Positions 17,398-19,137 of a DNA stretch of 20,497 nt are shown here, in pieces. Origin of the DNA: a virus; the IMG/VR virus record IMGVR_UViG_3300037178_000042, positions 1-20,497 of that record; one strand, given 5' to 3'. The stretch's first letter is position 1. Every line of letters begins with the position of its first letter. The notes under the pieces are model-generated. The model did no database searches and was not told where the DNA came from. It saw only the letters and a program-made list of their open reading frames with translations. The translations under genes were made by a program, and so were the position numbers.

Positions 17398-17414
17398 GAC
17401 CTAAAAGGTCGAAA
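17398..17414 (+). promoter_or_regulatory. Leader hairpin and AGGTCGAAA motif before the holin-like gene
   Basis: GACCT (17398-17402) and AGGTC (17406-17410) form a small hairpin just after the peptidase stop. The sequence AGGTCGAAA (17406-17414) also occurs at 10946-10954, before the other small membrane protein of the late module. Both copies are followed by an A/C-rich stretch and then the ATG (15 and 26 bases later). A shared regulatory leader is possible; chance is not excluded for nine bases. Confidence 0.35.
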
Positions 17415-17429
17415 CTAACAACAAACAAA

Positions 17430-17678
17430 ATGACAATCTCAGCATTCGAGCAGGCGGCGCTTCATGCGTGCAAGGTTGCGGCATGGGTGATCGCCTGTGC
17501 AGCCATCCCGGCGCTCTTGGCGCTCTACTCCGGCAACGTTTATTGGATGGCTCTAACGCCCTTCATCAACGGCATCGCCGCGGGATTGAAGAAGTGGTCA
17601 GGCATCCAAGCCGCCGTAGCTATTCAAGCTGCGGCCGCCAACGCAGCCGCAGCAGCAAAGCAGCCCTCCGCGCAGTAG
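17430..17678 (+). CDS. Holin-like small membrane protein
   Basis: The 82-residue product has a hydrophobic segment at about residues 14-33 (CKVAAWVIACAAIPALLALY), a short polar turn (SGNVY), and a second weaker segment (WMALTPFINGIAAGL). An Ala-rich helical C-terminus (AAVAIQAAAANAAAAAKQ) follows. Two short membrane segments, small size and position after the peptidase fit a holin. The leader (actaacaacaaacaaa) is A/C-rich with no Shine-Dalgarno site. It is the last late gene before the RNA-like interval and ends at TAG. Confidence 0.68.
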   Translation: MTISAFEQAALHACKVAAWVIACAAIPALLALYSGNVYWMALTPFINGIAAGLKKWSGIQAAVAIQAAAANAAAAAKQPSAQ

Positions 17679-17688
17679 AACTTCCACA

Positions 17689-17923
17689 CCAGTAGCTCTC
17701 ACGGACGGGGAATCCCAGCTAAGCCGCGCGGCTTGCTCCTACAGGATTGCTACTGGCGTGGGCGTTTTCGAACGTCCCGGCTACCTCTTCGCTTCGACCC
17801 GGAGAGGCGGGCGGGGCGCTTGGAAAGGAATCCTCCTCGACAGAGATTCCCCTGCTAACCGGCACCAGCCGCCCTTTCGTACTTTCACAAATCAACGTCC
17901 TCTCAAATGGGTCTCATGACCCC
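17689..17923 (+). ncRNA. Candidate structured RNA upstream of the HNH gene
   Basis: No reading frame here looks coding, but inverted repeats are dense. CCAGTAGC (17689-17696) pairs with GCTACTGG (17749-17756). Inside that, AATCC (17711-17715) pairs with GGATT (17744-17748), and AAGCC/GGCTT (17721-17734) is extended by AGC/GCT. Next are GGGCGTT/AACGTCC closed by TTCG (17760-17777) and an eight-pair stem CCTCTTCG/CCGGAGAGG (17784-17807). GGAATC/GATTCC (17827-17850) and GGGTC/GACCC with loop TCAT (17909-17922) follow. GGGGAATC (17707-17714) could instead pair with GATTCCCC (17845-17852), which would make a pseudoknot with the first stem. I looked for group I intron core motifs and found none convincing. 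Strand is assumed from the neighbours; class is unknown. Confidence 0.45.
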
Positions 17924-17931
17924 AACCTTGC

Positions 17932-17980
17932 ATTAACTGGTGGGTACGCTAGGGTTAGTTATATAACCCCACCAGTTAAT
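17932..17980 (+). promoter_or_regulatory. Perfect 13-base inverted repeat covering the HNH start codon
   Basis: ATTAACTGGTGGG (17932-17944) is the exact reverse complement of CCCACCAGTTAAT (17968-17980). Within the loop, GGGTTA (17952-17957) and TAACCC (17964-17969) can form a nested or competing stem. The right arm ends with the A and T of the ATG at 17979-17981, so the start codon would be sequestered in the folded RNA. No Shine-Dalgarno site is present. It could control translation, terminate upstream transcripts poorly (no T-run), or be a DNA recognition site for the nuclease. Confidence 0.65.
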
Positions 17981-18368
17981 GGCATTTAAGAGCCCCGAAC
18001 GAAAGAAAGAATGGATGCGCCAATGGTTTCTTGCAAATAAGGGCAGGATTTATAAAAACCAAAAAGCTTACCGCCGAACACAAAGGCAACAATTTCATGA
18101 AGAACTAAACCGCGCTCTCGGTTCCAAATGTAAAAGCTGTGGCTTTAGTGACACGCGGGCATTACAGATAGACCACATAAAGGGTGGCGGCCGGAAAGAA
18201 AGGGCGCGTATTGGCAACACGTATGCCTATTTCCTTTATATGGTCAGACTGCTCAAGAGCAATCCAGAAGAGTTTGTTGCGACTTACCAACTCCTCTGTG
18301 CCAACTGCAACTGGATTAAGCGCCTCACTCAGGATTCCCCGGAAGATGTCAGCGAAACCTCTCGTTGA
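17979..18368 (+). CDS. HNH endonuclease with zinc-binding CxxC pairs
   Basis: The 129-residue product has a basic, Tyr/Gln-rich N-terminus (SPERKKEWMRQWF, KNQKAYRRTQRQQF) and a C-terminal HNH domain. CKSC (51-54) is the first zinc pair, QIDHIKGGG supplies the catalytic Asp65-His66, and LLCANCNWIKR supplies CANC (107-110) and Asn111. Free-standing HNH enzymes of this size are common homing nucleases in phages. The N-terminal part resembles the basic extension seen in phage HNH proteins adjoining introns or inserted between genes. The base composition is more AT-rich than the flanking genes, supporting separate acquisition. The start is buried in an inverted repeat and the stop in a second hairpin, so the gene looks like the cargo of a discrete element. 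Confidence 0.85.
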   Translation: MAFKSPERKKEWMRQWFLANKGRIYKNQKAYRRTQRQQFHEELNRALGSKCKSCGFSDTRALQIDHIKGGGRKERARIGNTYAYFLYMVRLLKSNPEEFVATYQLLCANCNWIKRLTQDSPEDVSETSR

Positions 18369-18378
18369 TCTTCCGGGG
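18337..18378 (+). terminator. Long hairpin across the HNH stop codon
   Basis: CCCCGGAAGAT (18337-18347) and ATCTTCCGGGG (18368-18378) form a perfect 11-base inverted repeat. After a 2-base bulge the stem continues with CAGCGA/TCGTTG (six pairs, one G-T) around the loop AACCTC. The TGA stop (18366-18368) lies at the inner end of the right arm. The bases after it (catctttcccc) are only weakly T-rich, so it may be a weak terminator, an mRNA 3' end, or the right end of the HNH element. Confidence 0.55.
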
Positions 18379-18420
18379 CATCTTTCCCCACCCGCACCTT
18401 AAAAACTGAAAAGGAGAATT

Positions 18421-19137
18421 ATGGAACAGCTACTTGCTCACACGGGAGCTTCCAAGCTCTCGCGCGACCAACTCGTAACCATCCTTCCGCCCGAGGCGAC
18501 GGACACCTTTAAGCCCATCGCCCACGCGGACCTCATCGGGAACGTCCTTGAGGCGCTCTCGTACCGGCACATTAACGTAGTCCGCGACGAGTACGCGGTG
18601 ACCGACGACGGGATGAAGCTCTTCGGGGTCCTCGACCTCGAATCGTCCTTCGAAGGCTGCAGATTCTCGCTCGGGATCCGGAACGCGAACGACAAGTCCA
18701 TGCGTCTTGCGCTCACGGTCGGGTACCGGGTCTTCGTCTGCGACAACATGGCGTTCCACGGGGATTTCACCCCCGTGCTCGCCAAGCACTCGAAGCACTT
18801 CAACCTGCAGGATGCGCTCGCCATCGGCATCGATAGGATGCAGCGCAACTTCGAGCCGATGCGGAAGCAGGTGGAAAGCTGGAGGAACTTCCAGCTTTCC
18901 GATGCCGCCGCGAAGCTCGTCATCTACCGCGCGTTCATCGAGGACGGTCTCGAAGCGCCGAAGCACCTCTCTCGAGAGGTCCATCGGCTCTACTTCGACC
19001 CGCAGTTCCCCGAGTTCCAGCCGCGCACGCTCTGGAGCCTGTCGAACGCGTTCACGTCAGCGTTCAAGGATCTCGACCCGGTTCCTCAGTTCAAGGCGAC
19101 CGCCAAACTTGGCGGATTCCTCGCTTCGATGAATTGA
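18421..19137 (+). CDS. DUF932 family protein
   Basis: This 238-residue protein belongs to the DUF932 family found in phages and plasmids. Typical segments are TFKPIAHADLIGNVLEALSY, VVRDEYAVTDDGMKLFGVLDLE, GCRFSLGIRNANDKSMRLALTVGYRVFVCDNMAFHGDF, and a helical second half (IGIDRMQRNFEPMRKQVESWRNF). The biochemical role of the family is not established. The gene begins with AAAAGGAGAATT before ATG 18421, the first normal Shine-Dalgarno start after the late module, and it opens the rightmost operon. Length is in the lower range for the family, and no frame break is seen. Confidence 0.85.
   Translation: MEQLLAHTGASKLSRDQLVTILPPEATDTFKPIAHADLIGNVLEALSYRHINVVRDEYAVTDDGMKLFGVLDLESSFEGCRFSLGIRNANDKSMRLALTVGYRVFVCDNMAFHGDFTPVLAKHSKHFNLQDALAIGIDRMQRNFEPMRKQVESWRNFQLSDAAAKLVIYRAFIEDGLEAPKHLSREVHRLYFDPQFPEFQPRTLWSLSNAFTSAFKDLDPVPQFKATAKLGGFLASMN

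Follow-up and report, generated by a model that had tools for sequence, protein, structure and literature searches.

Structured intercistronic RNAs and attenuators are already known as a kind of regulatory element. The put RNA of the lambdoid phage HK022, an antiterminator of about 70 nt, comprises two stem-loops located 3' of the early promoters and acts without dedicated proteins (PMC9378689). Homing endonuclease genes of phages, such as mobE of phage Aeh1 and segB, have been described with a hairpin over the translation start or the ribosome-binding site (PMC2988022).

In the current analysis we describe a covariation-backed and hitherto undescribed RNA family of phages infecting Acidobacteriota; little is known of the phages of this phylum. 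It resembles put in being a cis-acting structured RNA of a phage, situated at an operon boundary, with one module (element A) of similar size. Element A, however, comes after a stop codon, has no evident promoter or terminator, and forms a single branched stem where put has two stem-loops. With attenuators and the expression platforms of riboswitches the RNA shares three complementary segments before a gene, the first of them beside a translation stop, but it differs in its long, freely varying stems and interchangeable modules, has no U-tract terminator and is not bound to one downstream gene. What is new is that the modules of the chain can be swapped and that their edges pair in alternation.

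An HNH gene follows the RNA in the stretch analysed. It is comparable to the free-standing HNH genes of phages (the mob genes of T4, mobE of Aeh1) and to segB in its intergenic location and in the hairpin covering the start of translation. T4 segB is located between tRNA genes and thus also has RNA genes as neighbours. The present HNH protein, a putative homing endonuclease, matches the HNH and Endonuclease_7 families of Pfam weakly. An HNH gene adjoining a structured RNA is likewise a feature of HEARO or omega RNA with IscB; here the RuvC part and any Rfam match are absent, and the RNA and the HNH gene are not co-inherited.

The locus and its relatives

The window, which is the entire IMG/VR record IMGVR_UViG_3300037178_000042 (20,497 bases), most likely represents an acidobacterial provirus, since its final 7.1 kb shares 99.9% identity with part of a 232-kb Acidobacterium MAG contig. 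Structural genes including that of the capsid extend up to a cysteine-peptidase-like gene (16520), which is followed by an 82-aa holin-like ORF. Searches of Pfam, PHROGs and NCBIfam give no significant hit for either of them; the label holin is suggested by the size and composition of the ORF, and both genes would presumably act in lysis. The RNA fills the whole gap after the holin-like gene, from 17678 to about 17895, and is flanked by the following genes.

17430..17678, forward strand: small holin-like ORF of 82 aa; its stop codon TAG (17676-17678) abuts the first base of the RNA
18421..19137, forward strand: gene of the DUF932 family (Pfam PF06067), usually the first gene 3' of the RNA

A search with the DUF932 protein has identified about 30 related phage loci (54-95% identity), many of which have the RNA at the same place. 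About 28 related loci contain the RNA, and with few exceptions they belong to temperate phages or prophages of Acidobacteriota, the hosts being soil Acidobacteria. The upstream genes differ, and in 18 of the 28 loci the distance from the start of the upstream stop codon to the first module is 1-7 nt. The final G of this codon is, in the window, also the first base of GAAC. The distance from the end of the RNA to the next ribosome-binding site is about 20-40 nt in most relatives. The gene after the RNA is usually that of DUF932, but encodes a Fis-type HTH protein in L084-L086 and an N6/N4 DNA methylase in L083, and small ORFs take its place in L087, L102 and L163. As the downstream gene differs among the relatives, the RNA, judged by the order of genes, marks the border between late genes and variable cargo and is not tied to one gene. 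The cargo farther 3' is of the temperate-phage type and includes, for example, an OLD-family nuclease and an integrase. The OLD-family nuclease (L092, 9244-10587, reverse strand) and two DNA methylases (L083, 4109-4741 and 6427-7419, forward strand) are likely to be defence or anti-restriction genes.

Modules of the RNA and their pairing

The original prediction of a structured RNA with several stems is borne out. The region 17679-17980 has a folding energy of -113.8 kcal/mol as against -95.0 ± 5.2 kcal/mol in dinucleotide shuffles (z -3.6), none of the 100 shuffles reaching it, and an 8-nt loop, CUUCGACC, is present at 17792-17799. The RNA is a chain of modules whose edge segments are ordered 1-2-1-2-3. 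Typically the left edge (segment 1) is roughly GAACGTCC, the right edge (segment 2) is GGGCGTT and the final segment 3 is CGCCC-like. The elements identified in the window are given below.

17678..17766, forward strand: element A, an 86-nt module (alignment of 12 phages; covariance model R1), with edge segments 1A (GAACTTCC) and 2A (GGGCGTT), a basal stem CCAC-A-CCAGTAGC/GCTACTGG-C-GTGG with a conserved A-C mismatch, and inner hairpins GGGNNNTCC and AAGCCGCGCGGCTT
17770..17822, forward strand: element B, a long hairpin 1B...2B with the loop CTTCGACC at 17792-17799 (covariation)
17827..17850, forward strand: hairpin 1 of element C, GGAATC / GATTCC around CTCCTCGACAGA (in the window, L082, L096 and L097)
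17853..17864, forward strand: hairpin 2 of element C, with the loop TAACCG, consensus YAACCR (covariation)
17760..17777, forward strand: alternative hairpin 2A:1B, GGGCGTT-UUCG-AACGTCC, which excludes the module stems (sequence, constrained folding)
17814..17874, forward strand: alternative stem 2B:3, GGGCG (17814-17818) with CGCCC (17870-17874), which encloses element C (permutation test)

Element A is near-invariant in 12 phages, its unpaired bases and basal A-C mismatch included. Its covariation is weak (two-sided change in 2 of 26 pairs) because the sequence varies too little. Covariance model R1 identifies 13 forward-strand loci, including the window and the host copy, with E-values of 2e-26 to 5e-22, and more than half of the relatives are without this element. 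Among 398 genomes of the host family it is seen only as the host copy (0 mismatches), besides one chance-level hit with 3 mismatches; phage records gave nothing and plasmids only chance hits. Since element A stays almost unchanged in phages whose neighbouring hairpin stems have little sequence in common, it must make contact with something specific, which recommends it for structural and binding studies.

Element B has a loop fixed as [A/C](U)UUCGACC on a stem of free sequence, the median pairwise identity of the hairpins being 53%. In 19 sequences its covariation score is 0.85 as against 0.24 +/- 0.04 in shuffles, with 90% of the cells paired and two-sided changes in 6 of 7 pairs. Hairpin 2 of element C, itself an optional element, also has a variable stem and scores 0.76 as against 0.16 +/- 0.06. 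The shuffle and permutation controls leave some relatedness among the loci in the covariation figures. UUCGACC was also considered as a partner in loop-loop pairing with AAAGGUCGAA, conserved 5' of the holin-like gene; this was rejected, as the leader varies (GGTCGA/T/G/C) while the loop shows no corresponding changes, and L102 breaks the pairing.

In L088, L096 and L097 other modules stand in for elements A, B and C or join them. The set of modules therefore exceeds these three, since the modules in these loci have the same edges and different heads. Those at 4833-4919 of L096, at the equivalent position of L097 and at 4757-4840 of L088 have branched heads of their own between the edges GAACTTCC...GGGCGTTTG.

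The strand that folds is indicated by mismatches within the helices. In both arms of all 28 B hairpins, under a pairing-neutral alignment, 42 G-U and 21 A-C mismatches are found (p 0.011); in the inner seven pairs alone the counts are 12 and 8, which is not significant. The excess of G-U points to folding of the sense-strand RNA, the effect being modest. Taken together, these comparisons make it very probable that 17678 to about 17895 is a structured RNA of the sense strand, conserved and modular, which occupies the gap separating the last lysis-side gene from the first cargo gene in temperate Acidobacteriota phages.

That the class of the RNA could not be named agrees with the database comparisons. 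The window has no Rfam match at the gathering threshold (a single chance hit has an E-value of 2.6), and no family with such features is described in Rfam or in the literature searched. ARAGORN finds no tRNA or tmRNA cloverleaf in the window, nor at the RNA site of the 12 relatives scanned. The absence of a group I core noted from the sequence also holds at E <= 5 over 17400-18500; a group I intron was rejected, as there is no match to the catalytic core and the RNA sits between complete ORFs and begins at a stop codon. A decayed coding gene, for which an 80-aa ORF (17747-17989) was considered, is set aside as the region evolves by compensatory base-pair change. The pseudoknot originally proposed between 17707-17714 and 17845-17852 has to be given up as a coincidence of the window that is ruled out by the sequences of the relatives. 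The partner is missing in L085, L086, L091 and L092 despite the same or a covaried A hairpin, L082 disrupts the helix, and L096 and L097 have the partner but no element A.

Covariation among homologues, the absence of which would have spoken against a functional RNA, is strong in elements B and C and in the pairings 1:2 and 2:3. Over 28 loci, the 1:2 pairing has an energy of -636 kcal/mol as against -364 +/- 20 kcal/mol for permuted partners (about 13 SD, 0 of 20,000), and the 2:3 pairing has -302.9 as against -246.2 +/- 8.1 kcal/mol (about 7 SD, 0 of 20,000). The hairpin boundaries were curated by hand for this test; own and swapped partners have equal freedom of search, since the leader of every locus was scored against each segment 2. 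Compensating changes in the 2:3 stem include GGGGGTT/AACCCCC (L086), TGAGCA/TGCTCA (L169), CGAGC/GCTCG (L170) and GGACG/CGTCC (L091), and segment 3 is weak in L094. The UUCG-type loop of the original prediction stands in part: a candidate UUCG-capped hairpin is present in the window at 17760-17778, but the UUCG loop of 2A:1B is not conserved. Complementarity equivalent to 2A:1B is seen in relatives, as judged by eye from the sequences.

The pairings 1:2 and 2:3 are mutually exclusive at the base of the stems. Given the length of the 1:2 stems, no more than their base can be displaced by 2:3. In the window, a predicted energy of -86.0 kcal/mol compares with -80.9 kcal/mol when 2:3 is forced and -77.2 kcal/mol when 2A:1B and 2:3 are both forced; by these predictions the alternative folds are comparable. 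The alternating complementarity could partly be a by-product of module duplication, as segments 1, 2 and 3 resemble one another across the modules. An intrinsic terminator at 2:3 was rejected by the criterion of a GC-rich hairpin with a U-tract: the eight nucleotides after 2:3 contain 2.5 T on average (26 loci), and no terminator-like sites are seen at 2:3 under the terminator rules assumed for uncultured hosts. No promoter-like sites are seen in a scan for the sigma-70 type.

The HNH gene and its flanks

The interval between the RNA and the DUF932 gene comprises the following features.

17881..17895, forward strand: pre-RBS motif, copy 1, ACNTTNAMAANTSAA; a similar motif precedes the first downstream gene in most relatives
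17896..18395, forward strand: inserted HNH cassette, its ends placed by the flanking motif copies
17931..17981, forward strand: hairpin sequestering the HNH start codon, a 14-nt perfect inverted repeat (17931-17944 / 17968-17981), z -4.3 against shuffles
17979..18368, forward strand: HNH endonuclease ORF of 129 aa (PHROG 2255, E 6e-9)
18333..18382, forward strand: hairpin spanning the HNH stop codon, formed by a 15-nt repeat of 93% complementarity (18333-18347 / 18368-18382), z -7.0 against shuffles
18396..18410, forward strand: pre-RBS motif, copy 2, then AAGGAG

The start and the stop of the HNH gene had been placed inside inverted repeats; both repeats are present and their hairpins are stronger than those of shuffled sequences. 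Among the relatives of the HNH family, start and stop hairpins are both strong in the window alone. The protein is indeed of 129 residues and has no RuvC or IscB region. An AlphaFold model of the HNH protein alone has a pLDDT of 54 and was not used.

The motif ACNTTNAMAANTSAA occurs just twice in the window (at most 1 mismatch), a count reached in 1 of 100 shuffles. Since the HNH gene lies between these sole two copies, it most likely entered the pre-RBS segment as an insert of about 500 bp. Comparison with relatives lacking the insert agrees with this reading, as in them the RNA is joined directly to the ribosome-binding site, forming an empty site. A small intergenic phage ORF that encodes an HNH domain, together with such an empty site, is characteristic of free-standing phage HNH genes, and the gene is probably an independent homing-endonuclease cassette of that kind, which would be translationally masked by its own hairpin.

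The proposal that the RNA and the nuclease form one mobile unit, the HNH protein using or being carried by the adjacent RNA in the manner of an intron or IscB, is hardly credible. In its favour, the two lie side by side not only in the window but also in L185, the near-identical copy in the host, and HNH genes recur near the RNA (L082, L168). The RNA is nevertheless found without this HNH gene in at least 11 other phage loci. Conversely, of the 209 viral HNH relatives passing tblastn, 80 were fetched, and nhmmer finds no RNA near them. The HNH protein of the window is not found among the DUF932-related phage loci. IscB with omega RNA was rejected on the same lines, there being no split RuvC, a 129-aa HNH protein only, no Rfam match and no co-inheritance of RNA and nuclease. 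L082 and L168, which are the closest relatives, carry another HNH gene, and this one interrupts the RNA at the junction of elements A and B. HNH genes thus land repeatedly in the RNA locus without belonging to the RNA. The insert lies at 4363-4880 in L082, where it encodes a 151-aa HNH protein (Pfam HNH, E 9e-12), and begins at 6250 in L168; its left end pairs with the edge of element A as a new hairpin, GTGGG...CCCAC.

Regulatory readings of the module chain

That both pairings are complementary and covary is seen directly in the aligned loci, as are the conservation, modularity, strand bias and position of the RNA. The best overall reading, to which we give a probability of roughly 0.4, is an intercistronic riboregulator with alternative folds, coupled to translation of the upstream gene and accompanied by an independent HNH cassette. 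Ribosomes finishing the upstream gene would cover segment 1 and free segment 2, and the freed segment 2 could then form the 2:3 fold beside the ribosome-binding site of the next gene. When upstream ribosomes are lacking, the 1:2 modules would form. The cargo genes might thereby be tuned to the translation of the late genes. Elements A and B, with their fixed loops and, in B, free stems, may serve as docking sites for a protein or ligand biasing the choice of fold. Fold switching, ribosome coupling, the docking factor and the direction of the effect are what we infer from these arrangements, with rules for ribosome binding and termination that are assumed for uncultured hosts. The design of the modules, in which loops are fixed, stems are free and an edge can pair with the neighbour on either side, makes clear predictions as to how late and cargo genes would be kept on one transcript and yet controlled separately.

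A device acting on transcription, in which a put-like antiterminator or an attenuator gates polymerase from the late operon into the cargo, would suit the position at an operon boundary and the mutually exclusive 1:2 and 2:3 stems, which are attenuator-like; element A, short, highly conserved and folded, also recalls put. We regard such a device as rather unlikely, since 2:3 is not followed by a U-tract, neither terminator-like nor (within the sigma-70 scan) promoter-like sites are found, and element A, branched where put has two stem-loops, is found in fewer than half of the relatives. With no U-tract after segment 3 and no terminator-like sites, a translational effect is more likely than intrinsic termination; a role in antitermination or RNA processing is possible. 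That stacked hairpins merely shield the 3' end of the late mRNA or yield a phage small RNA, with no switching, is an unlikely reading too. It agrees with the start at a stop codon, with the very stable hairpins and with invariant loops that might bind proteins or nucleases, but leaves the compensatory 2:3 pairing and the tight spacing to the next ribosome-binding site unexplained.

The shared edge sequences of the modules, the insertion of HNH genes at a module border (between A and B in L082 and L168) and the variable cargo zone that follows could also be accounted for at the level of DNA, by alternating inverted repeats that serve as sites of recombination or cargo insertion and fold incidentally. 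This is improbable, as the edges covary rather than stay fixed, the loops are fixed in a single orientation and the G-U excess (modest, p 0.011, and absent in the inner seven pairs alone) indicates RNA of one strand. To return to the riboregulator, a more specific form of it is doubtful. Here the RNA would represent a new class of phage riboregulator in which an event at one end of the chain is relayed through alternately pairing modules to the pairing beside the ribosome-binding site, whichever cargo gene follows. The relay would be set off by a factor bound to element A or the UUCGACC loop, or by a ribosome standing at the stop codon of the upstream gene.

Some observations concern the flanking genes. 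The model of the DUF932 protein (m1e301646fd26, pLDDT 80) has a strand-rich N-terminal half and a helical C-terminal half, and no convincing match to it is found in the PDB. Several copies of DUF932 relatives, spaced roughly 10-60 kb apart, occur on single Acidobacteriota contigs, such as PKUV01000120.1 (L204, L233, L239, L249) and JAIQGL010000011.1 (L194, L241, L258). These are possibly repeated integrated elements, and RNA modules are absent beside them at the places inspected. The holin-like gene is preceded by a motif, TAAAAGGTCG(AAACC), at 17402-17413 of the window, which also occurs in L082, L087, L091, L092, L096, L097, L099, L100, L103, L110, L169, L170 and L175 and in some phages precedes other genes as well. 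It may act in these phages as an unusual signal for ribosome binding or for regulation.
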